NCBI GenBank assembly: GCA_017520425.1
Contig: JAFXFO010000026.1
Coordinates: 62,001-126,000 of the forward strand
Direction: 5' to 3'
Source of the DNA: Lachnospiraceae bacterium
GTDB taxonomy: Bacteria > Bacillota > Clostridia > Lachnospirales > Lachnospiraceae
Length of the DNA stretch: 64,000 nucleotides
Below, piece after piece: positions 3,718 through 30,239 of the stretch. The notes below the pieces were generated by a model that saw only the letters and a program-made list of their open reading frames with translations, did no database searches and was not told where the DNA came from. The number at the start of each line of letters is the position of its first letter. The first letter of the stretch is position 1. The position numbers and the translations under genes were made by a program.

Positions 3718-5541
3718 ATGGCACCTAGGGGCGGTCCAATGCGAGGGGGATATTTGACAGAAGAGGAAAAGGCGAACATGCCAAAGGTTACCTTGCCCTT
3801 ATTAAAACGTATTTTTTCTTATTTGGCACCTTATTGGAAGCAGATGGCAGTAGTACTAATCTGTATCGTTGTGTCTTCCGCATTCAGTTTATTGCCTTCC
3901 GTACTGACGGGAAAGATTATCGATGAGGGTCTTATCGGTCAGGATATGCGGATGCTGGTGATTTTGATTCTGACATCGCTGGGAGTAACTTTGGGAGCAA
4001 ACCTGATTCGTGTGGCAGAAAGCTATTTGAATACCTGGATTGCACAGCATATTACTTTTGATATGCGTAATAAGATGTATAAGCATCTGCAGCAGATGTC
4101 TCAGGGCTTTTTTACATCCAACAATCAGGGTGATATCATTACCCGTATGACCAGTGATATTTCCGGTGTGGAAAGAGTCATAACCAGTACCTTTACCAGT
4201 ATTTTGTCCAATGTGATTACCTTGGTGGTGGCTGTGATTATTATGTTTCAGGAGAACTGGATACTGGCATTGGTGGGTATGATAGTGATTCCTCTGTTTA
4301 CCATTCCCACCAGATGGGCAGGTAAAACCAGGTGGACTCTGACCCAGGAATCTCAGGAATGTAATGATGAAATCAATGGTATTTTAAATGAAACTCTCTC
4401 TGTCAGCGGACAGCTTTTGGTAAAGCTGTTTGGCAGAGAAACTTACGAGTATGACAGGTATGAAAAGGCAAATCACCGAATGATAAAGCTGAATATCAGA
4501 GAAAGCATGGCAGGACGATGGTTCATGGTGATTATCACCACCTTCTCCAGTGTGGGACCTATGCTTTTATATCTGGTAGGCGGCATTCTGATGATGAAGT
4601 ACAATTCAGACCTTACCGTAGGTGATATTACCGTACTGGTTGCCTTGCTTGGAAGAATGTACGGACCGGTAAATTCATTGCTTAACATGCAGGTGGAATG
4701 GATTCGTTCCATGGCGTTATTTACCCGTATTTTCGAGTATTATGACATGCCTATTGAGATTAAGAATGCAGAAGATGCTATTATTCCTACCAGCACAAAG
4801 GGTGACGTGGAATTTAAGCATGTGGAGTTTGCATACAACGAAGAACGTCAGATTTTGAAGGATATTAATTTTGAGTTAAAGAGCGGCAACAGTATCGCAA
4901 TCGTAGGTCCTTCCGGTTCCGGCAAGAGTACCATCGTAAATCTGATTCCCAGACTTTATGATGTATTGGGTGGCGAGGTGATCTTTGACGGTGTGGATGT
5001 GCGGAAGCTGGATTTGGAATATCTGAGAAATCAGATAGGTATCGTATCCCAGGAAACCTATTTGTTTAACGGTACCATTCGTGAAAACCTGCTTTATGCA
5101 AAGCCCGATGCCACAGAAGAAGAAATGATAGAGGCTTGTAAAAAGGCTAATATTTACGAATTTGTACAGAAGCAGGAGAAGGGCTTGGATGCAATGGTAG
5201 GTAACAGAGGTCTTAAGCTTTCCGGAGGTGAAAAGCAGAGACTTTCTATTGCAAGAGTACTTTTAAAGGATCCGGTATTGTTTATTTTTGATGAAGCGAC
5301 TGCATCCTTGGATTCCATATCCGAAAGTAAGATTCAGGAAGCCATCAATCCCATTATCAATTCCCGCACCAGTATTCTGATTGCCCATCGATTGTCTACC
5401 ATTTTGGCGGCGGATGAAATCCTGGTTATTAAGGATGGAGTAATTGCTGAAAGAGGTGTGCATTCAGAGCTGGTAAAGGCCGGTGGTACCTATACGGAGT
5501 TGTATGAAACACAGTTTGGAAAGGCGCTTGAGAAGCAATAG
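3718..5541 (+). CDS. ABC exporter, fused permease-ATPase (MdlB/MsbA type)
   Basis: The 607-residue half-transporter has a six-helix type I exporter domain over residues 30-340 and a C-terminal ATPase. Walker A is GPSGSGKST at 397-405, the signature LSGGE is at 501-505, and Walker B ends in FDE with D525-E526, followed by an IAHRLS switch histidine. All key residues are intact, so it should work as a homodimer or pair with a distant partner. AAGGAGGA precedes the ATG, 15 bases after plsY. The substrate is unknown; lipid, peptide and drug export are all possible for this family. A clear terminator follows. Confidence 0.9.
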   Translation: MAPRGGPMRGGYLTEEEKANMPKVTLPLLKRIFSYLAPYWKQMAVVLICIVVSSAFSLLPSVLTGKIIDEGLIGQDMRMLVILILTSLGVTLGANLIRVAESYLNTWIAQHITFDMRNKMYKHLQQMSQGFFTSNNQGDIITRMTSDISGVERVITSTFTSILSNVITLVVAVIIMFQENWILALVGMIVIPLFTIPTRWAGKTRWTLTQESQECNDEINGILNETLSVSGQLLVKLFGRETYEYDRYEKANHRMIKLNIRESMAGRWFMVIITTFSSVGPMLLYLVGGILMMKYNSDLTVGDITVLVALLGRMYGPVNSLLNMQVEWIRSMALFTRIFEYYDMPIEIKNAEDAIIPTSTKGDVEFKHVEFAYNEERQILKDINFELKSGNSIAIVGPSGSGKSTIVNLIPRLYDVLGGEVIFDGVDVRKLDLEYLRNQIGIVSQETYLFNGTIRENLLYAKPDATEEEMIEACKKANIYEFVQKQEKGLDAMVGNRGLKLSGGEKQRLSIARVLLKDPVLFIFDEATASLDSISESKIQEAINPIINSRTSILIAHRLSTILAADEILVIKDGVIAERGVHSELVKAGGTYTELYETQFGKALEKQ

Positions 5542-5621: not shown

Positions 5622-5654
5622 AAAAGACCGAAATTAAGGTTTCGGTCTTTTTTT
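5622..5654 (+). terminator. Intrinsic terminator after the ABC exporter
   Basis: AAAGACCGAAA at 5623-5633 pairs with TTTCGGTCTTT at 5640-5650 around a 6-base loop and runs into a T tract. It closes the upstream unit just before the promoter of the polysaccharide locus. Confidence 0.9.
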
Positions 5655-5667
5655 GTATGTCGAAAAA

Positions 5668-5676
5668 TGTTATAAT
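5668..5676 (+). promoter_or_regulatory. Extended -10 promoter of the exopolysaccharide locus
   Basis: TGTTATAAT is a perfect extended -10 element (TGnTATAAT). The upstream -35 position falls in the T run of the preceding terminator, so recognition probably relies on the extended -10. Predicted transcription start is near 5683, about 35 bases before the first gene of the locus. Confidence 0.65.
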
Positions 5677-5718
5677 TTAATTAACAATGGGAAACTATGG
5701 GGAAAAAGGGCTGGCAAA

Positions 5719-6003
5719 ATGTCGAAAACGATTAAGGAACAGTATAAACGATATCAGTTGCGTCATGTAGCAGGACAGTTTTATTTGTTGGATATGCAGC
5801 AACCCGGTGTGCCGTATAAGCGGCCTATGGAGTTAAATGAGATTGGCGCGGAAATATGGCAAATGATGGCGGAAGGTTGTACACTTGAGCAGGTAGTGGG
5901 GAAGCTTGCCGAGGAGTATGATGCTGGAGAAGAGGATATCCGACAGGATGTGTCAGCATTTCAAAAGAGTTTGATGACATACGGAATTGAAATAGGGGAA
6001 TAA
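5719..6003 (+). CDS. PqqD-family small protein heading the Pel-like locus
   Basis: The ATG at 5719 is preferred over one at 5653, which lies inside the terminator tract and ahead of the predicted promoter. The 94-residue product matches the PqqD pattern: a short beta-rich N terminus (YQLRHVAGQFYLLD), then LNEIGAEIWQMMAEGCTLEQVV, and a C-terminal helical wing ending in GIEIGE. PqqD proteins bind leader peptides for modifying enzymes, and PqqD-like proteins also occur in some exopolysaccharide loci. The gene ends 3 bases before the SDR-PelD gene, so it is part of the polymer operon. A second PqqD-like domain is at 28462-29610. Its exact role here is unknown. Confidence 0.8.
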   Translation: MSKTIKEQYKRYQLRHVAGQFYLLDMQQPGVPYKRPMELNEIGAEIWQMMAEGCTLEQVVGKLAEEYDAGEEDIRQDVSAFQKSLMTYGIEIGE

Positions 6004-6006
6004 AAC

Positions 6007-8178
6007 ATGAATATTTTATTAATCGGTGGTTCGGGAAGCTTTATTAACAACCTGATTATTAAACTGAATAAAGAGGGTCACAGAATTTATCTTCTGACCG
6101 GCAGTAGATATAAGCAAGCACCTTATCAGAAAGTGTTTGAGAGATATGATTTTACATATGATTGTACCTGCCTGGACGAGATATTTAAGAGCATTGACCC
6201 GGATTTAACACTATTTATGGGAGCACATGATACCAATTTCAGGTGGAATGAGGAAAAAGATGCCGTACGTTTTTCAGCCAGTCTGATGAATATCTTGATG
6301 GCTTATTCCATGAATAATGTGGGAAGGTTTATTTACCTTTCTTCAGATGAAGTATACGGATTTGATTATGATAGATTTATTACAGAGGAGAGTCCTACAG
6401 CACCGTCGACCATGAGAGGAATGGTGATTGCCCAAGGAGAAGAGCTTTGCAGGAGCTTCCGTGTAAATAGAGGATTGGATATTCTTACCTTACGTATAGA
6501 TAATATTTACAGCATTCCTCAGGAACGAAAGGACGTAAATAATATTTGTGCGCGTATGTGCCTGGAAGCTTTGGAAAAAGGGACTATATCCATTACTTAC
6601 GATCATTTCATGTCCTTTATGTATGAAACAGATGCGGTAGAGTTTATCTATCGTTTTATACAGGCTGACAGCCAGAAGTATTCCATCTACAATTTGTCGG
6701 TGTCTGAAGCGATTTCGGAACAGGAACTTGCTCATATGGTGAAGGATGCCATGGGAGAAGAAATCGCTATTGTTCACAATGAAAAGCTGGGACAAAGAAG
6801 AGTTTTAGCAAATAACCGAATGTATGAAGAATTTAAGATTCCGCTAAGCTGTGATTTGGAGACCATTATTCAGCGAATGGCTGACCATATGAAGAATCAC
6901 AGGAATTTGTTTCTGACAGGCGAACAGGACAATCTACCATGGTGGAAGCGTTTGCTGAATAAGGCGGGATGGTTTATCCATGCCCTGATTCCTTTTTTGG
7001 AAAACCTGATATGCTTCATACCATTTTTTATGATTAATAATCGTACGGCGGATAGCACTTATTTTGCTAATCTGGATTTGTATCTTTTGTATGTACTCCT
7101 GTTTGCTATTGTTTACGGACAGCAGCAGGCTACGTTTTCTGCGGTGTTGGCGACTGCCGGTTATTGTTTCCGACAGATGTATGACCGTTCCGGTTTTGAG
7201 CTTATGCTGGATTCCAATACCTATATTTGGATAGCACAGTTATTTATCTTAGGTTTGACCATTGGATATATGAAGGATAAGCTGAATGTGTTGAAACGTG
7301 AAAGCGAAGAGGAACAGCAATTTTTGTCCGTTCAGTTGAGTGATATCCAAGATATTAATAATAGTAATGTGCGTGTAAAGGATGCCTTGGAAACTCAAAT
7401 CGTAAATCAGAACGACAGTATCGGAAAAATATACAGTATTACTTCTACCTTGGATCAGTATAGTGCGGAAGAAGTATTGTTCTATGCTACGGAAATGTTG
7501 GTACAGCTTTTCGGAACAAGGGATGTGGCTATTTATACCATTTCTAATTCCGAATATGCCCGTCTGTTCGCTGCTACTTCCCAGAAGGCCAGAAGTATGG
7601 GGAATTCCGTGAAATATGCAGAAATGGGTGAATTTTATGAGGTCCTGATGTCACGGAAGGTGTATATAAACAAGACACTGGATGATAAATACCCGTTGAT
7701 GGCAACGGCCATTTTCGAGAATGATAAAATACAGACCATTCTTTGCATTTGGGGAATTCCATGGGAAAGAATGACGCTGGGCCAGGCGAATCAGCTGACT
7801 GTTGTTAGTGCTCTGATTCAGAATGCGGTGCTTCGTGCAAACAGGTACCTGAAGGTGCTGGAAAATGAGCGTTATAAGGCAGGCACCAGAATCATGGAAA
7901 CAGAGGCGTTTTCGGCGCTCTCTCATGCGTTCATGACTGCAGAAGCAAAGGGGTTGACGGATAGTACACTACTTCGAGTGGTGAATAAAACCGGCAATTC
8001 TATACAGGCAGGACAGTTTTTGGATGCCCAATTAAGGGAATCGGACTATATCGGAACCTTAGAGGACGGAGAATTATACATACTATTATCCAATACCAGC
8101 AAGGAGCATTCCTTAAATGTAATCAATCGAATGGCCCAGTTGGGAATCAACATCGAGGTAGTGGAGGAAATGGAGTAA
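6007..8178 (+). CDS. pelD: SDR-PelD fusion, probable c-di-GMP receptor for Pel-type polymer synthesis
   Basis: The 723-residue protein has three regions. Residues 1-310 resemble an NAD-dependent epimerase (GGSGSF dinucleotide loop at 7-12, SSDEVYG). The catalytic Tyr-x3-Lys appears replaced by Met139 and Gln143, so it may bind but not turn over a nucleotide sugar. Residues about 320-430 hold several membrane helices. Residues about 470-610 look like a GAF domain, followed by a degenerate GGDEF-like domain. There R677-E-S-D680 has the spacing of the c-di-GMP I-site and EDGEL (686-690) replaces the GGDEF signature. PelD is the c-di-GMP receptor that switches on Pel synthesis, and this layout fits that role. 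AGGGGAA precedes the ATG. I infer inner-membrane regulation of the following synthase genes. Confidence 0.85.
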   Translation: MNILLIGGSGSFINNLIIKLNKEGHRIYLLTGSRYKQAPYQKVFERYDFTYDCTCLDEIFKSIDPDLTLFMGAHDTNFRWNEEKDAVRFSASLMNILMAYSMNNVGRFIYLSSDEVYGFDYDRFITEESPTAPSTMRGMVIAQGEELCRSFRVNRGLDILTLRIDNIYSIPQERKDVNNICARMCLEALEKGTISITYDHFMSFMYETDAVEFIYRFIQADSQKYSIYNLSVSEAISEQELAHMVKDAMGEEIAIVHNEKLGQRRVLANNRMYEEFKIPLSCDLETIIQRMADHMKNHRNLFLTGEQDNLPWWKRLLNKAGWFIHALIPFLENLICFIPFFMINNRTADSTYFANLDLYLLYVLLFAIVYGQQQATFSAVLATAGYCFRQMYDRSGFELMLDSNTYIWIAQLFILGLTIGYMKDKLNVLKRESEEEQQFLSVQLSDIQDINNSNVRVKDALETQIVNQNDSIGKIYSITSTLDQYSAEEVLFYATEMLVQLFGTRDVAIYTISNSEYARLFAATSQKARSMGNSVKYAEMGEFYEVLMSRKVYINKTLDDKYPLMATAIFENDKIQTILCIWGIPWERMTLGQANQLTVVSALIQNAVLRANRYLKVLENERYKAGTRIMETEAFSALSHAFMTAEAKGLTDSTLLRVVNKTGNSIQAGQFLDAQLRESDYIGTLEDGELYILLSNTSKEHSLNVINRMAQLGINIEVVEEME

Positions 8179-11430: not shown

Positions 11431-13284
11431 ATGAATAGGATGATATCACGTAGAAAATACGTAAGTATGACCATGATGATGCTGGTTTTGCTATTCATGT
11501 TTCAGTTTACGCAGGTAATCAAGGATACGGGTAATGATTATCATGTCAATGAATATGCTGAAAAAAGTATAATCAATGGTTCGGCAGAATGGAAAATGGA
11601 ACAAAAGGGTATTTCCGCATCAGGAAAAGAGTACGAATATGTAGCTTTTTTGGGAGATGTGGATAGTCCCTTGGGAAATATTGTGACACAGTGGTGCAAG
11701 TATACAAAGCGAAACATACAAGAGTATTCTTCCATGGATACTTTAAAGCAAATAGAAGAGTTTGCACCGGAAGTTCTTTTGATAGATTCTGCATATGTTG
11801 ATTGCAGTAAAGATACCGATTACTTACGTAATTGGGCAAAGCAGGGAATCTCAATGATATTTTGTAATCTTCCGGATGTCAATGTAATTGCAAAAAATGG
11901 AAAAATCCGCGAGATACTGGGTATCAGAAGTGTAGAAGCTTACCAGGTTGAATTAGACGGAATCAAGCTGTTTGGTGGTTTTTTATTGGGTGGAGATACC
12001 ATTTACACAGTAGAGGATGAAAATCAGAAAAAAAGGCAGGATTTGAATTTAGAGGTTCCCTGGTATGTGGCATTTGGTGGTACCAAGACATATATTGTGG
12101 GCATGGTGAATGAAGAACTGATTGTCGAGGAAGAACATAAAAATGAGTACATGCCGGCGATTATTTGGCGAAACAGCTATGAGAACGCTAAGGTATTTGC
12201 TGTCAATGGTGATTATATGAGTGACAGTACCGGATTGGGAATCTTAAGTGCCATGATGGCAGAGCTTCATAGCTATGAAGTATATCCGGTAATCAATGCG
12301 CAGAATATAACGGTAGCCAATTTCCCGGGATTTGCGGAAGAAAATACGGAAACCATTATGCGTTTATACAGTAGGGACCAAAGTGATTTGTTCCGTGACA
12401 TTATGTGGCCCAGTATTAATGCTACTATGAAACGGAATCAGTTGCATGAGACAGTATTCTTCATGGCACAGGCGGATTATGAAGATACCATAGAGCCAAA
12501 AGAAGATGAATATGTTTTTTATTTAAAGGAATTAAATGAGCAGAAGGCGGAAGCTGGAGTTTCCGTAAACAGCAGAGCGAAGAATATTACTTTACTGGAT
12601 AAGATGGTAAGGGATAGTGCCTTTTATGAGGAGGCAAACAACGGATATACCTTTACCGCAGCTTTTGCGGATGATACAAAGAGTGCCAAAGAATTGAAAA
12701 GGATTATTTCTAAGGCAGATGCATTACAGAATATTAAAACCGTGATACAAAGATATGATGCAAGCACACCGATTGTATCTTATTTGGATAAAGATGTGAC
12801 CTTACAGAATACTACCAGTGATGGTGTGTATTATACCTTTTCCCAGGATTTGCGGATGAAGAGCCTGCAGACGGCTTTGGCATATTCCAATACCTTGTTG
12901 GATATGTATCCTATTGCATGGCCGGAGTCGCCCAATGATGTTTGGGAAAATATGTATGATGATTATTCCCGAAATATCAATACTTTCTGGAGGAAGTTTC
13001 ATGTATTTGACAATACTACGGCTTCAGAAAGTGATGTTCGGGTGAGAAGATTTTTGAGCCTGGATTATGAAGACAAGATGAAAGAGAATGTGATTCATCT
13101 GGATGTAAAGGGAGCTGCCGGAGAAGTATGGTTTATGCTTTTAACCAACGGACAGGAAATCGAAAAAGCAGAAGGCGCCACCTATAAGAAGGTGGAAGAG
13201 GATGCGTATCTATTGAAGGTAACCGGTAATGCGGCACAGATTTATCTGCGGGATTCTAACAGAACGTATTACTATATGAAATAA
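11431..13284 (+). CDS. DUF2194-like extracytoplasmic protein of the Pel-like locus
   Basis: The ATG follows the previous stop codon directly, with GGGGAG just upstream, which implies tight translational coupling. The 617-residue product has a single N-terminal membrane or signal segment (about residues 11-28) and is otherwise soluble, so it should face outside. It looks like the DUF2194 group, with an early Rossmann-like part (EYVAFLGDVDSPLGN) and a later stretch around FAVNGDYMSDSTGLGILS that resembles a deacetylase-type core. No PelA homologue is present in this window, and this gene lies where PelA would be expected. I infer, without proof, a polymer-modifying or hydrolytic role. Confidence 0.65.
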   Translation: MNRMISRRKYVSMTMMMLVLLFMFQFTQVIKDTGNDYHVNEYAEKSIINGSAEWKMEQKGISASGKEYEYVAFLGDVDSPLGNIVTQWCKYTKRNIQEYSSMDTLKQIEEFAPEVLLIDSAYVDCSKDTDYLRNWAKQGISMIFCNLPDVNVIAKNGKIREILGIRSVEAYQVELDGIKLFGGFLLGGDTIYTVEDENQKKRQDLNLEVPWYVAFGGTKTYIVGMVNEELIVEEEHKNEYMPAIIWRNSYENAKVFAVNGDYMSDSTGLGILSAMMAELHSYEVYPVINAQNITVANFPGFAEENTETIMRLYSRDQSDLFRDIMWPSINATMKRNQLHETVFFMAQADYEDTIEPKEDEYVFYLKELNEQKAEAGVSVNSRAKNITLLDKMVRDSAFYEEANNGYTFTAAFADDTKSAKELKRIISKADALQNIKTVIQRYDASTPIVSYLDKDVTLQNTTSDGVYYTFSQDLRMKSLQTALAYSNTLLDMYPIAWPESPNDVWENMYDDYSRNINTFWRKFHVFDNTTASESDVRVRRFLSLDYEDKMKENVIHLDVKGAAGEVWFMLLTNGQEIEKAEGATYKKVEEDAYLLKVTGNAAQIYLRDSNRTYYYMK

Positions 13285-13305
13285 AAAGAAAGCGTGGTGA
13301 AACAT

Positions 13306-14766
13306 ATGAAAATCTGTATCGTGGCAGAAGGGTGCTATCCCTATGTAATGGGTGGTGTATCCAGTTGGATAGATAGTATGATAAAGTCATTTCCCAATAT
13401 AGAATTTTGTATATTAACCATTATTTCTGATAGAGAACAAAGCGGGAAATTTCTATATACCCTGCCGGAAAATGTGACAGAGGTTTATGAAGCCTATTTG
13501 AATGACTTCGATTGGAGTAAGAAGCGTAAGTACGGAAAACGTACGAAGCTGAATAAGAAAGAATATAGTGCTCTTAGAAGCGTTATTTTGAATCAACAGG
13601 TGGAATGGGACGTTCTGTTTGATATGTTCCAGAATAAAAAGATTTCTGTAGATGATTTGCTGATGGGAGCTGATTTTCTGAAAATCGTTCAGGAATGTTA
13701 TGATATGAAATATTCACAGATTGTTTTTTCTGACTTTCTGTGGACAGTACGATCCATTTATCTTCCTCTGTTTTTAGTGATGCAGACGAAATTGCCCAAA
13801 GCAGATTTCTATCATTGTGTAGCGACCGGATACGCAGGTCTTTTGGGAAGTATGGCGAAGTACATGTACGGAAGCGGATTGCTGGTATCGGAGCATGGTA
13901 TTTACACAAGAGAGCGAGAAGAAGAGATTATTAAAGCGTTCTGGGTGGCCGGAATCTATAAGAATATTTGGATCGAGCAGTTTCGTAAGATGTCACGACT
14001 GGCCTATGAGCGTGCTGATAAGGTAACCAGTCTCTATGCCCATGCTAAGGAACTGCAGATAGAGTTAGGGTGTCCGGAAGGTAGGATTATGGTGACTCCT
14101 AACGGTATCAATATGGAGCGTTTTGCGGATTTACCGGGTAAGACCACGGAAGAAAAGGATTGGATTAATATTGGAGCAGTGCTTCGTGTTACACCCATTA
14201 AAGATGTTAAGACCATGATTCGAGCTTTTGCTTATGCTAAGGAAGAGGTGCCTAATATCAAGCTGTGGATTATGGGACCTACGGAAGAGGATGAGGAATA
14301 TGCACAGGAATGCTTTGATTTAGTGGAGAGTATGCAGATTTCCGATGTGATTTTTACAGGAAGAGTGGATGTGAGACAGTATTTGGGGCGGATGGATTTC
14401 ACCATACTGACCAGTATCAGTGAAGGTATGCCTCTTACTATTTTGGAAAGCTATGCGGCGAAAAAGCCGGTTATCGCTACAGATGTGGGAAATTGTAAGG
14501 GCTTGATTTATGGTGAAAGTGATAATTTCGGCGCAGCCGGCATTCTGACCCATATTATGAATGTTTCAGAGATTACACAGGCAATTGTTAAGCTGGCCAA
14601 ATCACCGGAACTTAGGTATGAAATGGGAGAGGTTGGCTATAAAAGAGTGGAGAAGAGTTATCGAATCGAGCAAATGAAGGAAACCTATAAGGGAATTTAT
14701 CAGGAGCTTGGTTCGTTATACGGAAGTAACTGGACGGAAGAGAAGTTTGAAATAAAAAGGAGCTAG
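13306..14766 (+). CDS. pelF: PelF family glycosyltransferase (GT4)
   Basis: The ATG at 13306 is preceded by GGTGA at close spacing; two in-frame GTG codons lie just upstream. The 486-residue cytosolic enzyme opens with ICIVAEGCYPYVMGGVSSW, the conserved PelF start that forms the acceptor loop. It ends with a GT4 donor domain carrying ITSISEGMPLTILESYA-type sequence (the EX7E region). PelF polymerises amino sugars from UDP donors in the Pel system. No membrane segment is present, so it must be recruited by PelD and PelE. It ends 8 bases before PelG. Identity is strong, but the actual donor sugar here is unproven. Confidence 0.92.
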   Translation: MKICIVAEGCYPYVMGGVSSWIDSMIKSFPNIEFCILTIISDREQSGKFLYTLPENVTEVYEAYLNDFDWSKKRKYGKRTKLNKKEYSALRSVILNQQVEWDVLFDMFQNKKISVDDLLMGADFLKIVQECYDMKYSQIVFSDFLWTVRSIYLPLFLVMQTKLPKADFYHCVATGYAGLLGSMAKYMYGSGLLVSEHGIYTREREEEIIKAFWVAGIYKNIWIEQFRKMSRLAYERADKVTSLYAHAKELQIELGCPEGRIMVTPNGINMERFADLPGKTTEEKDWINIGAVLRVTPIKDVKTMIRAFAYAKEEVPNIKLWIMGPTEEDEEYAQECFDLVESMQISDVIFTGRVDVRQYLGRMDFTILTSISEGMPLTILESYAAKKPVIATDVGNCKGLIYGESDNFGAAGILTHIMNVSEITQAIVKLAKSPELRYEMGEVGYKRVEKSYRIEQMKETYKGIYQELGSLYGSNWTEEKFEIKRS

Positions 14767-14774
14767 AGTTAAGA

Positions 14775-16238
14775 ATGGCAGGTATCGGTGTCAATCTGAA
14801 AAAGATATTTTCTAAAAATACGATAACGACACATGTGTATGGTTTTGCCTATAGTATGGTTGCTACTATTGCGCCTATGTTTTTGGTAATCGGCGCCATT
14901 ATTGTGATGCAGCTTCTATTGGGCTTTTCCAAGGTTGGATATGCTACCCGTGAGCTGTATTCCTGTACTGTGCTATATATTTTTATCTTTGCACTTTTGA
15001 CCGCAGCACCTTTTAATGCAGTACTGTCCAAGTATTTGTCGGATGTTATTTATAATGAAACTTACGACGATATTATGGCTTGTTACTACTTCGGATTGGG
15101 AGTAAACATTGTCTTCAGTTTTATTTGGGGTGTTCCTTTTTGTATTTGGGAGCATGTAGTTGGTGAAGTGCCGATATATTATGTATTTACAGGCTATTGC
15201 GGTTATATGGCTTTGGTATTGGTCTTTTACACAATGCTATATCTGTCCATTTGTAAGGATTATAAGAAAATATCCTTGTTTTTTTTCATAGGAATGTCGA
15301 TAACTATAATACTATCTCTTATATTTGTATATCTGTTTTCCATGGAAGTGACTTATTCCATGTTGCTTTCGTTGACTATAGGTTTCGCCATAATAGGTTG
15401 CCTGGAATTTGCTCTTATTAAGAGTTATTTTAGAGAAAACAGTGGTAAGTATAGGGAGGTATTTCAGTATTTTAAGAAGTACTGGAAGCTGATATTAACA
15501 AATTTCCTGTATATATTGGGATTGTATACCCACAATTTTGTGTTTTGGGGTACGGATATGCGTATGGTGGTAGTGGATACCTTCGTGTGCATGCAACCCT
15601 ATGACATGGCTTCCTTTATTGCCATGTTTACCAATATTTCGGCCAGTGTTTTGTTTATCTCCAGAGTAGAAATGCATTTTCATGAAAGATATCGTGCTTA
15701 CTCGGAGGCCGTTATCGGTGGAAGAGGAATGGATATCCAGAATGCAAAGAGCCGAATGTTCAGACAGCTTTCGGAAGAATTGATGAATCTGGTACGTATT
15801 CAGTTTATTGTTTCGGTTATCATTTACTTTTTGTGTATTACTTTATTGCCTTATTTGGGATTTGGTGGCTTAGTGATGAAGATTTATCCCTGTTTAGCAG
15901 TAGGCTATTTTATCCTTTTTACCATGTATTCTGCCATTATTTTTCAGTATTATTACAATGACTTAACTGGTGCATTGATGACCTCAGCCAGTTTTTGGCT
16001 GGGTACTTTGATCGGAAGTATCTTTGCTACAAGATTACAGCCTATCTGGTATGGTATTGGTTTGGTATTTGGAGCATTAGTAGGTTGGACTGTGGCATAT
16101 TTCCGTTTGAGACATATTGAAAAAAGTGTTGATACCCATATTTTCTGTCAGGGCAGCATTATGAAAAAAGGACATGGAACGAAGCCGTCCAATGTGGTAT
16201 ATAACCGCTATGAGCTGGTGAAAAAAGAAGAAAGGTAG
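14775..16238 (+). CDS. pelG: PelG family polymer transporter
   Basis: The 487-residue protein has about twelve membrane helices from residue 20 to 450 and matches PelG, the inner-membrane transporter that works with PelF. The order PelF-PelG with an 8-base gap is typical. AAAAGGAG lies upstream at a rather long spacing of 12 bases. Features visible include an N-terminal NTITTHVYGFAYSM, a WKLILTNFLYILGLYTHNFVFW helix region, and a polar C-terminal tail ending in Lys and Glu residues. The presence of PelD, PelE, PelF and PelG in one operon makes a Pel-type secretion complex likely. Confidence 0.9.
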   Translation: MAGIGVNLKKIFSKNTITTHVYGFAYSMVATIAPMFLVIGAIIVMQLLLGFSKVGYATRELYSCTVLYIFIFALLTAAPFNAVLSKYLSDVIYNETYDDIMACYYFGLGVNIVFSFIWGVPFCIWEHVVGEVPIYYVFTGYCGYMALVLVFYTMLYLSICKDYKKISLFFFIGMSITIILSLIFVYLFSMEVTYSMLLSLTIGFAIIGCLEFALIKSYFRENSGKYREVFQYFKKYWKLILTNFLYILGLYTHNFVFWGTDMRMVVVDTFVCMQPYDMASFIAMFTNISASVLFISRVEMHFHERYRAYSEAVIGGRGMDIQNAKSRMFRQLSEELMNLVRIQFIVSVIIYFLCITLLPYLGFGGLVMKIYPCLAVGYFILFTMYSAIIFQYYYNDLTGALMTSASFWLGTLIGSIFATRLQPIWYGIGLVFGALVGWTVAYFRLRHIEKSVDTHIFCQGSIMKKGHGTKPSNVVYNRYELVKKEER

Positions 16239-24805: not shown

Positions 24806-25813
24806 ATGAGTATGTTGGATAGAAAAGACAGAATTGATTGGCTTGATGTTTTGAAAGGTATATTGATTGTTTTTGTGGTATTGAGTCACAGTTATCCGCC
24901 TGATATCTATCGATATTTTTTCACCCCATTCTTTTTAACCATGTTCTTTTGGGCTTCCGGCTATACATTTTCCATGAAAAAGTCGGGAAAAGAATTTCTG
25001 CTAAATAAGTGTAGAAGTTTATTGCTACCACTTTTGGTATTGGGGAGTATGCGAATTATATTGGCTCAAATATTGGAAGGTGGGAGTTGGAAAGAGCGGA
25101 TAATAGGGCTTTTGGTACAAATTAATTGTCAATATGATGAGCTTTGGTTTGTGGCGTGTTTATTTACTGCATCCATCTGTTTTTATGGGTTATTGAAGCT
25201 TTTCGGTTGTATTAAGTGGTGTAAGAACGAACTCTTTTTGGTTGGTGTTTCTGGGATTTTTTTATCCATAGCCATGGTGTTTATGTGTATATGGAAAATG
25301 CATATACCTTGGCAACTTGAGCTTGCGTTTATGATGTGCTTTTATATGGCACTTGGTTATTTTTACAGAAGGCATGAGGAGAAAATCGAGGCGTGCTGGG
25401 GCAATAAGTGGATTGTTATATTGTTAGGAATCATATATTGTATTGGTGTTTTCGGATTTCCCAATTCGGTGGATATACATAAAGAGCAGTTTGAGTATCC
25501 TATTGTCTTTTTGGTATTATCATGGATATGCATATTACCAATGATAGAAATTTCAAAATTAATAGCAAGATTTGAATGGAAGCGGATATTCGTGTTTTGG
25601 GGACAAAACACATTGTTCTATTATGCTTTTGGCGGAACCGTACGGGTTATTTTATATAAGATATTGGAGATAATAGGAGTTCAAAATAGCTATTTGGTAC
25701 CTATCTTATGCACTGTTTTGACCATGTTTGCGTTGATTCTTCCGGCATGGATAGTAAGGACATATTTCCCTTGGATGGTAGGTGTAAAATCAGTAGGAAA
25801 AAATAGACAATAG
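24806..25813 (+). CDS. Acyltransferase 3 family membrane protein
   Basis: The 335-residue protein has about ten membrane helices. It starts with RIDWLDVLKGILIVFVVLSHS, the family hallmark in which the histidine is catalytic, followed by MFFWASGY and a conserved RSLLLPLL loop. GAGGTAAC precedes the ATG, 8 bases after the previous gene. Members acetylate or otherwise acylate sugars of surface polymers on the outer face of the membrane. It is the last gene of the co-directional polysaccharide block. Confidence 0.9.
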   Translation: MSMLDRKDRIDWLDVLKGILIVFVVLSHSYPPDIYRYFFTPFFLTMFFWASGYTFSMKKSGKEFLLNKCRSLLLPLLVLGSMRIILAQILEGGSWKERIIGLLVQINCQYDELWFVACLFTASICFYGLLKLFGCIKWCKNELFLVGVSGIFLSIAMVFMCIWKMHIPWQLELAFMMCFYMALGYFYRRHEEKIEACWGNKWIVILLGIIYCIGVFGFPNSVDIHKEQFEYPIVFLVLSWICILPMIEISKLIARFEWKRIFVFWGQNTLFYYAFGGTVRVILYKILEIIGVQNSYLVPILCTVLTMFALILPAWIVRTYFPWMVGVKSVGKNRQ

Positions 25814-25822
25814 AGAAGCAAG

Positions 25823-25859
25823 TAAAAACGTTTTCACTACTATTTTCTATAAAATAGTA
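25823..25859 (+). promoter_or_regulatory. Palindromic elements upstream of the peptide gene (cre-like site and small hairpin)
   Basis: TAAAAACGTTTTCA at 25823-25836 differs from the catabolite-response (cre) consensus by one base. TACTATTTT at 25838-25846 pairs with AAAATAGTA at 25851-25859 around a 4-base loop but lacks a T tail, so it is a weak terminator or an operator. Both lie 20-60 bases upstream of the -35 box. Function is unproven. Confidence 0.35.
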
Positions 25860-25877
25860 ATGAATATGAGGAATTAG

Positions 25878-25906
25878 TTTACAAAAGTGTAAAAATATGG
25901 TATGCT
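25878..25906 (+). promoter_or_regulatory. Promoter of the precursor-like peptide gene
   Basis: TTTACA at 25878-25883 and TATGCT at 25901-25906 are separated by exactly 17 bases. The predicted transcript begins near 25913, 35 bases before the start codon. The peptide gene therefore has its own promoter separate from the polysaccharide operon. Confidence 0.7.
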
Positions 25907-25947
25907 ATCTAAGTAAAAGAGTGAATTTGCTATAGGGAGGCAATAAT

Positions 25948-26373
25948 ATGAAAAAATACGAAAGACCAGTAGTTTTGGTTAATGAAGAGTTGGCTGAAGG
26001 TGTGTATGCAGCGAGTGGAGCAGTATGTTATACTTTTACCGCTAAAATAACCCAGACGCCTGAAAATGGAAGAGGTACATATGCTATCCAAATTGATGGA
26101 AAGCATGATGCGGCAGACGGACATCATAGTACAGAGAGAACCGTACAGATTTCATTTAATCAGGCAGTAACACATAGTCAGAGTAATGCATCTTCTGTTA
26201 GTGGAAATGGTTCCAGTGTATTAATATTAGAATATACTAACGAATCAGGTAATTATCACAATAATGCTGAAGATAATATTGGACTTGGTCAGTTATATGT
26301 GATTTCAGATGCTGGTCTTGCGGTAACTGGTATTGTATGTACACAGTGTAATATGGATTGCTCACAACATTAA
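25948..26373 (+). CDS. Leader-bearing, Cys-containing precursor-like secreted protein
   Basis: The ATG follows a strong AGGGAGGC site. The 141-residue product has no hydrophobic signal. Its first 24 residues look like a charged leader ending in VNEELAEGVYAASG. The remainder is polar, rich in Ser, Thr, Asn, Gly and His, with a beta-strand pattern and four cysteines: C27 just after the leader, and C131, C134 and C138 in the CTQCNMDCSQH tail. Own promoter, immediate intrinsic terminator and adjacent ABC exporter are the arrangement seen for exported ribosomal peptides. I do not know a named family. It could be a modified peptide, an adhesin-like small protein or a structural matrix component. 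Confidence 0.75.
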   Translation: MKKYERPVVLVNEELAEGVYAASGAVCYTFTAKITQTPENGRGTYAIQIDGKHDAADGHHSTERTVQISFNQAVTHSQSNASSVSGNGSSVLILEYTNESGNYHNNAEDNIGLGQLYVISDAGLAVTGIVCTQCNMDCSQH

Positions 26374-26389
26374 TGAGATTAATATTTTT

Positions 26390-26418
26390 GAGGTTATGTT
26401 TAGACATAACCTCTTTTT
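26390..26418 (+). terminator. Intrinsic terminator between peptide gene and ABC exporter
   Basis: GAGGTTATG at 26390-26398 pairs with CATAACCTC at 26405-26413 around a 6-base loop and is followed by TTTTT. No clear promoter lies between it and the exporter gene, so partial readthrough would give much more peptide than exporter. Confidence 0.9.
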
Positions 26419-26444
26419 ATTCATAGTAAATTTTGGTGATATCG

Positions 26445-28280
26445 ATGAATAATAAAATAAAGTTTCTATATAATAGAATACGGTCCGGACGTTTGCGGGA
26501 AATGTATATACAATGCATTTGGATATATCAATATGCGAAGCATTATTGGCGCTCAATGATTTTTTATACTATATTGGGAATGATTGGAACAGCAATAGGT
26601 TTGCTTACCAGTATGATTTCAAAAGAGTTAGTGGATATTATTACCGGTCATAAATCAGGAGCAATTGTTACGATATTTTTAGTTATGATTGGGCTGAATA
26701 TTGGCACAAGTATTATGAATTTATTATCTGGATATGCGTCTACTTGGATAAGTATGAGAGTGGACGCAGAGATTAAAAGCGACATTTTTTCCAAAATACT
26801 AGTTACAGATTGGGAGTCATTAACCAATTATCACACAGGAGATTTGTTGGCAAGATGGGGAAGTGATGCTTCTAATATATCTTCCGGTGTATTAAATTTT
26901 ATTCCTAATTTGGTTATTTATGTGTTTCAATTCATTTCAGCATTTGCAGTTATTATTTATTACGACTGGACATTTGCTATTTTTGCCTTTTTAGGGATGC
27001 CTGTAACATTGATAATGTCCAGAACACTTATGCGTAGAATGATAAGTAACAATGAACGAAGCGCAACAATGAACGCTAAGATATCCGGGTTTAATCAAGA
27101 GGTTTTTTCAAATATTCAAACAATAAAAGCGTTTGATCTAATCAGGTTATATATTAATAAACTAAGAAATGTTCAGAAAGAGTTTATTAATATGAAATTG
27201 GATTTTCAAAAGATGTCTATGCTAACATCGTTGATTCTAACTACAGTAGGTTTATTAGTATCTTATTCTGCATATGGATGGGGAATCTATCGCGTATGGA
27301 GTGGCGAGATTAGTTATGGTACAATGACAATGTTTTTGAGCTTATCGGGAACATTAACAGGAACATTACATAGTTTATCATCTTTAGTACCGGCAATAAT
27401 ATCTCTCACCACCTCTGCCGGCCGTCTCATGGACATCGTAGAGATGCCCCGTGAAGACTACAGTAACGATGATTTAGTAAAAACCTTCTATGAAAATAAC
27501 AAGGACCATGGTATCAGCCTGAAAATGTCTGATGTAGAGTATTCTTACAAAACAGGTACGGAAGTCTTCGCGGGTGCTTCCTTAGAGGTGAATCCCCATG
27601 AAATTATTGCCTTAGTAGGACCTTCCGGAGAAGGAAAAACAACTATGTTGCGATTAATACTGTCTTTAATGCAGACGCAGAATGGTACGGCCTATTTATC
27701 AGGAGAAGGGAACAAGGATAGAGAAGGCAGCTTATTCCGGTCAGAAACCAAGGAATTAACCAGCGAAGAGATATTTACCCAATTCAACGCAGTACCCCTC
27801 ACTCCTTCCACCCGTAAGCTGTTTTCCTACGTACCTCAGGGGAATACCATGTTTTCCGGTACTATTGCAGAGAATATGCGTAATGTGAAGCCGGAGGCTA
27901 CGGATGAGGAAATCATAGAAGCTTTGAAGGGTGCCTGTGCATGGGAGTTTGTGGAGAAACTGCCGGACGGTATTTACAGTGAAATAAAGGAGCGAGGAGG
28001 TGGATTTTCGGAAGGGCAGGCGCAACGTCTTTCCATAGCCAGAGCTTTGCTTCGGGATGCACCAATCCTTCTTTTGGATGAGGCTACCTCTGCTTTGGAT
28101 GTAGCGACGGAGAGAAGGGTACTTCGAAACATTATGCAGGATGAGAAACCTCGTACCTGTATCGTAACCACTCACAGGCCCACCGTATTAAGCGCCTGTA
28201 CCAGAGTTTATGCCATCCGCGATAAAAAGTGTGTGGTATTAAACGAAGAAGAAATTGATGAAATGGTAAGAGGATTTTAA
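26445..28280 (+). CDS. ABC exporter (permease-ATPase) without C39 peptidase domain
   Basis: The ATG at 26445 follows GGTGA; a TTG at 26433 is an alternative. The 611-residue protein has a six-helix exporter domain (about residues 35-310) and an ATPase domain. Walker A GPSGEGKTT is at 392-400, Walker B is LLLDEATSALD, and the switch is THRP. The signature reads FSEGQ instead of LSGGQ. No N-terminal bacteriocin-processing peptidase is present, so any leader must be removed by another enzyme, for example the S26-type protein at 29763. Base composition changes inside the gene: sampled lines before 27400 are about 25-38% GC, while several after it are about 47-48%. The permease and ATPase halves may have different histories. 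Confidence 0.88.
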   Translation: MNNKIKFLYNRIRSGRLREMYIQCIWIYQYAKHYWRSMIFYTILGMIGTAIGLLTSMISKELVDIITGHKSGAIVTIFLVMIGLNIGTSIMNLLSGYASTWISMRVDAEIKSDIFSKILVTDWESLTNYHTGDLLARWGSDASNISSGVLNFIPNLVIYVFQFISAFAVIIYYDWTFAIFAFLGMPVTLIMSRTLMRRMISNNERSATMNAKISGFNQEVFSNIQTIKAFDLIRLYINKLRNVQKEFINMKLDFQKMSMLTSLILTTVGLLVSYSAYGWGIYRVWSGEISYGTMTMFLSLSGTLTGTLHSLSSLVPAIISLTTSAGRLMDIVEMPREDYSNDDLVKTFYENNKDHGISLKMSDVEYSYKTGTEVFAGASLEVNPHEIIALVGPSGEGKTTMLRLILSLMQTQNGTAYLSGEGNKDREGSLFRSETKELTSEEIFTQFNAVPLTPSTRKLFSYVPQGNTMFSGTIAENMRNVKPEATDEEIIEALKGACAWEFVEKLPDGIYSEIKERGGGFSEGQAQRLSIARALLRDAPILLLDEATSALDVATERRVLRNIMQDEKPRTCIVTTHRPTVLSACTRVYAIRDKKCVVLNEEEIDEMVRGF

Positions 28281-28466
28281 GATAAAAAGGGGAGTGATGC
28301 CCCACCATATATACCCTAATGCAGGACTGTATGAATTCGTCGGCACTTAGCGAGGTACCAAGACGAAGCTTGCTTCGTCACGAGCTTAGTGTCCGCTACG
28401 TAATTCATCCAAGCGAGAGCGTGTCCAAATAGGGTATATATGGTGGGGCATCACTTCCCTTTTATC
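28281..28466. repeat. 186-bp nested inverted-repeat element between convergent genes
   Basis: The left arm (28281-28319) and right arm (28429-28466) are near-perfect inverted copies of about 38 bases, sharing a GTGATGCCCCACCATATATA core. Inside is a second palindrome: ATGAATT near 28331 against AATTCAT near 28413, and a central perfect hairpin GACGAAGC/GCTTCGTC at 28362-28379. The whole element can fold into one long rod on either strand. It starts at the base after the ABC stop codon and its right arm covers the end of the opposing gene. No transposase is present. It may be a MITE-like insertion or an unusually large bidirectional terminator. Confidence 0.85.
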
Positions 28467-29610
28467 CATTAAGATATCTATCAATATATTCCTTCATAAC
28501 CAGTGCTGCACTGGGTTCCTTGGTGCAGTGGAGCTTGCATACTAAAATCTTGGAAACAATACTTTCTACAATATCCATATTTCGATCAAACAACTCTAAA
28601 GTCCAAGTAGGAGAAATCAATCGCTGACTTACCAGCAATTGTTTTTTGTCTTCGTTAAGTTCTTCAATTCGATCCGTAGGTGCTTGATTGAGAAGTATGA
28701 TTCCACCCAAGGGTACCGTTTGGGTAGTGCATATCCCGGAGGTGCCGCACCAGGGGATGCCATGAACCACAGCTTGTCCGTTCTCAAACGCCAATAGATT
28801 TAAGTCCCCATTGATAAGAGAAATATCATAAATCTCCTTCCACAGATTGGTATGGGTGGATTTGCCCATGCCGGAATGTCCGGAAAACAGCCAAGCCTTG
28901 TCTTTATACAGTATGGACGCAGAGTGGAGTGCCACCATGCCCATTTTCTGAGCCAAGTACAGATAGGTCAGGCGCAAAGCGTGGAAGACATCATAGTGAA
29001 AACCTTCGTTATAGGGAGGCATACAATACAGGTGTATAGTGGAGCCATCCATACTCATATGGATTTCTACAATAGACTTGGCAGCAGGAAACAGGAGGAT
29101 GTATTCATCCGTGGTTTCCATTACTACTAATTCCTCATTACGAATCAGCAGATTCCCATTTTTTCGAACCTTGGGAAAACCAGCATGAAAAGTGACTCTT
29201 TGATGTATCCTTTCACAGGAATTCACTGCAAAAGGGCAAAACTCTGTAGGAAAAGCCTCTCTGGGGCCATTAAGAAGAATCCCTAAGCCTCCGATAGAAA
29301 GAGTCATACTATTTTTATGCCGATATTTGGAGGAATCATCCAGAAGAATATCATAAGTAAGCAGTAGCCTAATAAAACAGTAGATATCATTATGAAAAGA
29401 ATCCAGATCCTCCTTTGGTATATTGTAATATTCGGCGCTCAAAGCCTGTATCTCTTCTAAGGTGTGGTCCTGTTCTAACAGCTTCCAAAGCCAAACGCCG
29501 GTTTCGTTGATTTGGATGCCGCGTTTTCTGTCTGCCTGCATTTGTCCATAGGGAAGCAGATAAGGAATATTTGCAATTTCTTTTAGCACAAAGCCGTTAT
29601 TTTGTCGCAT
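28462..29610 (-). CDS. PqqD-HprK-like fusion protein
   Basis: The start at 29610 follows GGAGAAACCC; a longer frame to 29649 lacks a site. The 382-residue protein joins two modules. Residues 1-95 are PqqD-like (INETGVWLWKLLEQDHTLEEI, then an acidic helical wing). Residues about 100-382 resemble HPr serine kinase C-terminal domains, with ALHSASI, the P-loop GHSGMGKST at 244-252, and LINGDLNLL as the likely metal-binding strand. HprK-like kinases occur in lasso-peptide clusters, where some phosphorylate the peptide, and in exosortase-linked polysaccharide loci. The PqqD domain could bring a leader peptide to the kinase. The target is not known; the precursor at 25948 is the obvious candidate. 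Confidence 0.85.
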   Translation of the reverse strand: MRQNNGFVLKEIANIPYLLPYGQMQADRKRGIQINETGVWLWKLLEQDHTLEEIQALSAEYYNIPKEDLDSFHNDIYCFIRLLLTYDILLDDSSKYRHKNSMTLSIGGLGILLNGPREAFPTEFCPFAVNSCERIHQRVTFHAGFPKVRKNGNLLIRNEELVVMETTDEYILLFPAAKSIVEIHMSMDGSTIHLYCMPPYNEGFHYDVFHALRLTYLYLAQKMGMVALHSASILYKDKAWLFSGHSGMGKSTHTNLWKEIYDISLINGDLNLLAFENGQAVVHGIPWCGTSGICTTQTVPLGGIILLNQAPTDRIEELNEDKKQLLVSQRLISPTWTLELFDRNMDIVESIVSKILVCKLHCTKEPSAALVMKEYIDRYLNG

Positions 29611-29709
29611 GGGTTTCTCCTTGTACGTTGGTCTGTAATGGTGAACCAATCATGTACAGTATAGCACTCTTTTTGGAAAAAGGCTACTGCGAGAATTGGA
29701 AAAAGCATG

Positions 29710-29762: not shown

Positions 29763-30239
29763 ATGGAAAAAGAATGTCAGGATATAGAGCAGCTTTTACG
29801 AGATGGAAACAGCATACAGATTAAACCCAGAGGATACAGTATGTACCCTATATTGGTGCCGGAAAGGGATGAGGCGGTGATTGAGCCGTTGAAAGATAAG
29901 CGTTTGAAACGTGGAGATGTGGCCCTTTATCGTAGGATGGAAGGGCAGTCTCAAGGGATATTGGTACTGCACCGTGTCTGGAAAGTGACTGATGAAGGCG
30001 TATATATGGTGGGCGATAATCAAAAAGAAGTGGAGGGACCATTAGCCCCGGAACAATTCTTAGGCATTATGGTCGGAATGTATCGAAAAGGAAAATATAT
30101 ACCTTGCACCCACAGGGCGTATCGTCTGATGACAAGTGGGTGGCTTTTGTTACGACCGATGAGACCCATAATATCCGGTGCCGCAGCAGCAATAAAAAGG
30201 ATGATAAAAACATCAAAAGCGAAAAGGAATGACTCATGA
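29763..30239 (+). CDS. S24/S26-family peptidase with Ser-His dyad
   Basis: The ATG at 29763 follows GAGGATGG; the open frame upstream extends through the promoter and is ignored. The 158-residue protein has the signal-peptidase box PRGYSMYPIL with catalytic Ser26, RLKRGDVALYRR, and ILVLHRV with His70 where type I bacterial enzymes have Lys. It ends the catalytic region with VYMVGDN. A Ser-His dyad is typical of SipW and ER-type peptidases. There is no strong N-terminal anchor; one weak hydrophobic stretch lies near residues 120-150. Its stop overlaps the start of fruK. I infer it could process the leader of the peptide at 25948; the alternative is a generic processing peptidase. Confidence 0.8.
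   Translation: MEKECQDIEQLLRDGNSIQIKPRGYSMYPILVPERDEAVIEPLKDKRLKRGDVALYRRMEGQSQGILVLHRVWKVTDEGVYMVGDNQKEVEGPLAPEQFLGIMVGMYRKGKYIPCTHRAYRLMTSGWLLLRPMRPIISGAAAAIKRMIKTSKAKRNDS

Follow-up and report, generated by a model that had tools for sequence, protein, structure and literature searches.

The window considered here is a stretch of 64,000 nucleotides from a Lachnospiraceae bacterium (GenBank assembly GCA_017520425.1, contig JAFXFO010000026.1, positions 62,001 to 126,000 of the forward strand), whose genome (G000 in our sample) measures 2.9 Mb in 42 contigs and is 90% complete. Our subject is the gene for a precursor protein, made of a charged leader and a longer core, which lies between the genes of a Pel polysaccharide locus on one side and those of an ATP-binding cassette (ABC) exporter, a PqqD-HprK fusion protein and an S24/S26 peptidase-like protein on the other (Table 1). 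An initial annotation, made from the sequence alone, had described a self-promoted protein of 141 aa with four cysteines, followed by a hairpin terminator and an ABC exporter, and had proposed that it may be a new type of small protein, exported and with a link to the matrix.

Table 1. Features of the precursor locus and the neighbouring Pel locus (positions in the window).
Feature	Position	Strand	Details
Promoter-like site TTTACA-17-TATGCT	25878..25906	+	9/12 matches, TG ahead of -10
Ribosome-binding site AGGGAGG of precursor gene	25934..25940	+	
Precursor protein gene	25948..26373	+	141 aa = 24-aa leader + 117-aa core
Precursor leader MKKYERPVVLVNEELAEGVYAASG	25948..26019	+	disordered / low confidence in AlphaFold model
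Precursor core	26020..26370	+	all-beta sandwich, CBM2-like predicted fold, net charge -7
Intrinsic terminator, hairpin 26390-26413 + T run, 3' of precursor	26390..26418	+	
ABC exporter, 611 aa	26445..28280	+	ABC_membrane 2.1e-37, ABC_tran 6.2e-24
PqqD (leader-binding type) fused to HPr-kinase-like P-loop domain	28462..29649	-	PqqD Pfam 6e-07
S24/S26 signal-peptidase-like protein, candidate leader peptidase	29763..30239	+	Ser26, His70, Asp85
Nucleotidyltransferase PF14907	23613..24797	+	K104, G105, E116, R118, D122, D124 in 29/29
Stand-alone second PqqD gene, ahead of Pel genes	5653..6003	+	6.2e-15
Epimerase-domain protein	6007..8178	+	probably extended PelD of Gram-positive pel loci (label inferred)
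DUF2194 protein	11431..13284	+	probably PelA-deacetylase-like (label inferred)
PelF-type glycosyltransferase	13294..14766	+	DUF3492 + GT1
PelG, Pel polysaccharide exporter	14775..16238	+	PF16933, 2e-146

The open reading frame (ORF), its cysteines (residues 27, 131, 134 and 138) and the order of terminator and exporter are as had been described, and the precursor matches no Pfam or NCBIfam family up to an E value of 0.1. The terminator hairpin, followed by TTTTT, has a folding energy of -13.4 kcal/mol (z -6.1), equalled in 0 of 200 shuffles. The promoter with its 17-base spacing and the ribosome-binding site were also found, but the promoter-like site taken alone does not rise above chance: the region 25700-28600 holds seven such sites, and its shuffles 11.0 (sd 3.4). 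What recurs in relatives is the layout. A promoter-like site with at least 9/12 matches lies within 160 bp upstream of 39 of 53 leader ORFs and of 156 of 471 longer ORFs from the same loci, and a terminator-like hairpin with a stem of at least 9 lies within 90 bp downstream of 29 and 49 of them, respectively, in a comparison where control starts are the first possible start codon while leader-ORF starts are set by the leader profile, and where many control genes sit within operons. These 53 come from a total of 58 precursors, five from the short loci L057 and L067-L070 being left out.

The precursor belongs to a family in which the leader is conserved and the cores are exchangeable. Searching with the whole precursor in genomes of the same taxonomic family returned, in several of them, matches limited to the first 26 to 38 residues, and the 58 distinct precursors gathered share a common start and have widely differing remainders. 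Y4, P7, E17 and S23 are invariant in the 56 leaders that are in register, meaning those with Y at position 4, and G24 is present in 55 of these. All 58 leaders contain YxxP, and 56 of them have V, I or L two residues past the P, which gives the lasso-type motif YxxPx[V/I/L]. The cores, 53-147 aa long (median 110), fall into 12 BLAST groups at 1e-3 (29, 12, 3, 3, 2, 2 and 2 members, plus five singletons). None carries a positive net charge, and the median of -5.2 per 100 aa compares with 0.0 for 420 cluster proteins. Between paired in-register precursors, available from ten loci, leader identity ranges from 46 to 92% (L025 0.79, L031 0.54, L032 0.79, L035 0.46, L105 0.75, L108 0.83, L112 0.83, L116 0.92, L121 0.71, L127 0.79); in L025, L032, L116 and L127 the paired leaders are 79-92% alike though their core types differ. 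A fixed leader with exchangeable cores suggests an export tag. We also considered whether these proteins are lipoproteins and rejected it: judged by eye, SG-Cys occurs only where the core happens to begin with Cys, and a hydrophobic stretch is absent. One further cargo type under the same leader, seen in L057, L070 and L128, has 53-58 residues, 4-5 Cys and the motif CQ.CSA...GCPD.MP.

The leader is linked to the exporter, to the fusion protein with its PqqD domain of the RiPP recognition element (RRE) type, to the S26 peptidase and to the Pel locus (RiPP, ribosomally synthesized and post-translationally modified peptide). The search in related genomes that had been proposed as a check returned the leader at E<=1e-5 in 17 of 299 genomes of the same family, nearly each of which represents a separate genus. 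All 17 carry pelG (PF16933), which occurs in 52 of the 299 overall (hypergeometric 1e-14); the threshold, chosen after the data had been seen, drops G047 (2.5e-4, without pelG) and G267 (0.0082, with pelG), and at E<=0.01 the count becomes 19 leader genomes, 18 of them with pelG. Two or three precursors are encoded in 9 of the 17. Leader and pelG lie 5 to 16 kb apart on one contig in 13 genomes and 28 kb apart in G135, and are on different contigs in G025, G146 and G240. Within the genus of the window, the same 7 of 13 genomes have both the leader and PelG, and the other 6 have neither. Among 391 genomes drawn from across the class, the leader (E<=1e-4) appeared only in G000 and its genus mate G022; the profile is thus specific, and the family can be mined directly.

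The fusion protein, too, co-occurs with the leader. At full length, counted as a match from profile position 3 or earlier to 378 or later (G213 was counted in two pieces), it is present in 16 of the 17 leader genomes and in 3 of the 282 others, a count that is partly by construction, because 13 of the 16 genomes supplied rows to its profile. Thirteen leader loci went into that profile, and 23 leaders of the same genomes into the leader profile; pelG played no part in choosing them. Four leader genomes (G094, G135, G146 and G240) did not contribute to the fusion profile; three of them have the fusion, the exception being G146, which is 68% complete. The three genomes with a fusion and no leader are G096, G049 and G023, and in the latter two the P-loop region is degenerate.

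A similar picture emerges from the 80 best matches of the PqqD-HprK profile, our named loci, which we divided into 36 closest and 44 more distant ones. Within flanks of at most 10 kb, the closest 36 hold a leader ORF in 27 cases, the exporter in 32 (with an identity of 45% or more), the S26 protein in 30, the nucleotidyltransferase in 11 and some Pel gene in 13, whereas the distant 44 hold these in 0 (leader), 1 (exporter), 4 (S26, at least 35%) and 2 (some Pel gene); we placed the division, at L136/L137, once it was known where in the ranking exporter and leader cease to occur. The co-occurrence of leader and exporter asked about at the outset is hence borne out, in counts that are not independent of the family sample, as some loci belong to the same genomes (L101=G012, L102=G158, L115=G025, L123=G135, L122=G689). 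The exporter shares the strand of the leader ORF in 21 of 34 cases having both, so the head-to-tail order of the window is common, not universal. Carriers of both include Eubacterium plexicaudatum ASF492 (L110), Coprococcus catus (L115) and Anaerobutyricum hallii (L120), and two are labelled outside the Lachnospiraceae (Erysipelotrichaceae, L121; Solobacterium, L132). One locus, L181 (G096), holds exporter and fusion with neither leader ORF nor S26 gene in 19 kb, in a genome without PelG, and is possibly a variant with another substrate.

Several features of the machinery bear on how such a leader might be handled. Among 21 Pfam families matched to the exporter there is no C39 peptidase, and the first match, ABC_membrane, begins at residue 38; removal of the leader therefore calls for a separate peptidase. 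The S26 protein is the recurring peptidase among the matched neighbour genes. Its Ser26, His70 and Asp85, which we take to be the catalytic positions of a peptidase of the Ser-His (ER) type, are conserved in 54, 55 and 55 of 55 sequences, and it matches NCBIfam TIGR02228 and, weakly, TIGR02754, both under the cut-off. Within the PDB, the PqqD part of the fusion comes closest to TbiB1, a lasso B1 protein (2.6e-5); two more PDB PqqD proteins, one of them named a lasso chaperone, match at 7e-4 and 1.6e-3. In lasso leaders the YxxPxL motif stands at -17 to -12, according to the accessible part of PMC10368454; given a cut after G24, Y4 and P7 of our leader would stand at -21 and -18, slightly further out. 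In the HprK-like part, the motif is H..K..NGDLN in the leader-linked clade and H..K..NDD in most other, more distant relatives; the clade so retains the His and the P-loop Lys while one Asp is replaced. PMC9266682 reports the His-Lys-Asp-Asp set to be essential in lasso kinases, and lacking the full set, the leader-linked domain is of doubtful ordinary kinase activity.

On the other side of the precursor, pelF, pelG and the PelD-like and deacetylase-like genes (the last two labels being our own) adjoin the leader system and form a Gram-positive Pel locus. PelF, PelG, the epimerase-extended PelD and DUF4832 are shared with the pelDEADAFG loci of Gram-positive bacteria in the sections of PMC7112168 that are accessible, where Roseburia pel loci are placed in a larger cluster and a nucleotidyltransferase is named in the legend of the Roseburia figure. 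The main text of that paper never uses the terms 'PqqD', 'ABC transporter' or 'signal peptidase', and the accessible sections make no mention of the leader protein family. Nor did we find an earlier description of the family in the literature searched, subscription papers and outside preprints being beyond its scope. The stand-alone PqqD gene also precedes an epimerase/PelD-like gene in L030, L034, L110, L117, L123 and L135. In the window it is accompanied, ahead of the Pel genes, by a second ABC exporter (3718-5541, + strand), of a type for which no match was found beside the PqqD genes of those six loci.

The beta-rich character ascribed to the core agrees with its AlphaFold model, in which the core is a predicted compact all-beta domain with blocks of predicted local distance difference test (pLDDT) scores up to 94, and the leader, under 50, is disordered. 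The top fold matches of the model are carbohydrate-binding modules of family 2 (CBM2) and chitin-binding modules, with modest likeness. One other core of the family exceeds the Pfam CBM_2 cut-off (26.0 against 24), and two family cores match a CBM2 profile in hhalign at 90.6 and 72.1%. The core of the window itself has no Pfam match to CBM_2 up to E 0.1 and an hhalign probability of 0.5%. Its predicted fold comes modestly closest to CBM2, from which the core differs in sequence and in having no evident row of aromatic binding residues. Sequence searches of the PDB with core profiles gave no match in one case and two weak ones in another (E 0.2 and 1.1), and the model of the type B core (pLDDT 56) was too poor for a fold search. 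Separately, a gene that borders the Pel locus (1248-2252, - strand) encodes a further candidate for a surface protein that binds Pel; it combines a CBM_2 domain (8.4e-12) with a hydrophobic helix and a linker rich in Pro and Thr.

Taken together, we favour, at a probability of about 0.62, a reading in which parts of a RiPP system, attached to the Pel locus, serve the leader-guided secretion of folded matrix proteins of a sugar-binding type. The initial proposal, that a new type of small protein is exported and has a link to the matrix, is thereby well supported at the genomic level. Assembly and export could proceed as follows. The promoter and terminator around the precursor gene might provide substrate in excess over the machinery. 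The YxxPxV leader would be bound by the PqqD domain of the fusion, and perhaps also by the stand-alone PqqD protein. The S26 peptidase, with its Ser-His-Asp residues, might cut near the fixed SG at the leader end, and the adjoining exporter would take the core outside, where the acidic, predicted CBM2-like domain could bind or cross-link Pel. In Pseudomonas, Pel is a cationic polymer of galactosamine and N-acetylgalactosamine. Differing core types under one leader may tune the matrix between strains. Sugar binding need not extend to all cargoes, since the cores of groups 2 and 4, small and rich in Cys, have no fold assigned. Finally, the cargo may be modified by the HprK-like domain and the nucleotidyltransferase. 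A rather doubtful extension is that this pair couples the exported folded proteins covalently, via a phosphate link, to Pel or to a precursor sugar; if true, it would yield exchangeable protein-polysaccharide conjugates that diversify the surface of gut biofilms, and a new class of matrix secretion. Should the favoured reading hold, the leader-recognition toolkit of small peptide natural products would also sort and export full-size folded proteins, and the family would provide a first group of candidate matrix proteins in gut Lachnospiraceae with Pel loci.

Much of this evidence has also to be weighed for other readings. With a conserved leader, a variable core, an RRE protein and an exporter in one locus, this is a RiPP-type leader-directed system in the broad sense, and the same leader, RRE and ABC logic is found in RiPP bacteriocins. 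One might suppose that the leader machine delivers diverse antibacterial domains, as a secreted bacteriocin or toxin-like family would, and that the link to Pel merely reflects a shared island. Variable cores under a fixed leader, and the several precursors in about half of the leader genomes, would fit this. The presence or absence of the leader, however, tracks pelG, the predicted folds are CBM2-like, and no immunity-gene candidate of at least 90 aa recurs: among unmatched ORFs of that size within 6 kb (best 14 groups, without domain annotation; smaller ORFs were outside the survey, so a small immunity protein may yet be encoded), one group is found in 10 loci and the others in at most three. 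We therefore regard a bacteriocin or toxin role as unlikely. The one recurrent neighbour is a large gene (14448-19142 in L029 and nine other loci, L036 and L115 being from one genome); by eye it looks sensor-like and perhaps encodes an enzyme of cyclic-di-GMP metabolism, as would suit the control of Pel. The narrower idea of a modified short-peptide bacteriocin is not supported, given the core with its predicted fold, the single neighbour group in more than three loci and the C-terminal residues discussed below. A C39 double-glycine bacteriocin was rejected on the Pfam matches of the exporter.

It could also be that the precursor is a true RiPP with a modified core, in which a Ser is phosphorylated by the HprK-like domain and given a sugar by the nucleotidyltransferase, as in pseudomycoidin, and the protein is possibly joined covalently to the polysaccharide. 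According to PMC9266682, PsmN, annotated as a nucleotidyltransferase, is required for the hexose on the phosphoserine of pseudomycoidin, and a kinase and a nucleotidyltransferase occur together with PqqD and ABC genes in phosphorylated or glycosylated lasso clusters, as far as the accessible portions of the sources go (PMC9266682, PMC10368454, PMC7533575). The conserved K104, R118, D122 and D124 of our nucleotidyltransferase and the invariant Ser23 would suit such a role, which is nonetheless improbable in view of the Asp lost in the NGDLN clade, of Ser or Thr ending just 2 of 58 cores and of a nucleotidyltransferase present in fewer than a third of the closest loci. A lasso-like phosphorylation of a C-terminal Ser was rejected on these C-terminal residues. 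The leader motif, the relatedness of the PqqD part to lasso B1 and the kinase-like, nucleotidyltransferase and ABC genes might, moreover, recall a lasso peptide cluster, or what is left of one. This is highly improbable and was rejected: the B2 peptidase (PF13471) was found in 2 of the 17 leader genomes, both times on contigs other than that of the leader, the cyclase (PF00733) in 13 of them, never on the leader contig, the genome of the window yielded neither (for the cyclase at E<=1e-5), and the cores are of the lengths given above. The system works like a RiPP export system, yet it is not a lasso peptide.

The locus can be compared with several known systems. The phosphorylated or glycosylated lasso clusters (paeninodin, pseudomycoidin, bsf) share with our locus the YxxPx-hydrophobic leader motif, a PqqD/RRE, an HprK-like protein, a nucleotidyltransferase and an ABC exporter; here, however, an S26 peptidase stands in place of the B2 peptidase and cyclase, one kinase Asp is lost, the cargo is a folded domain of ~110 aa by prediction, and the whole is set in a Pel locus. 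In the TapA-SipW-TasA operon of Bacillus subtilis, the genes of exported matrix proteins stand next to that of the ER-type S26 peptidase by which these proteins are processed. The likeness lies in an S26 peptidase gene beside genes of matrix proteins, which are putative in our case; TasA has a hydrophobic Sec signal, in contrast to the charged leader, dedicated ABC exporter and RRE found here. Nickel superoxide dismutase offers another parallel, a folded protein with a short non-Sec leader that is cut by a small S26-type protease, although its cargo is unrelated and, to our knowledge, neither an RRE nor an exporter belongs to that system.

A last observation concerns the DNA that separates the exporter gene from the convergent PqqD-HprK gene. 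It is occupied by a 179-base element (28285-28463) with inverted arms of 34 bases, 97% complementary and 111 bases apart. A search of the genome gave 22 match rows, two of which are the element itself on either strand, and of the remaining copies the closest have identities of 97% (136 bases) and 89%; the element is a dispersed palindromic repeat and perhaps a miniature mobile element.

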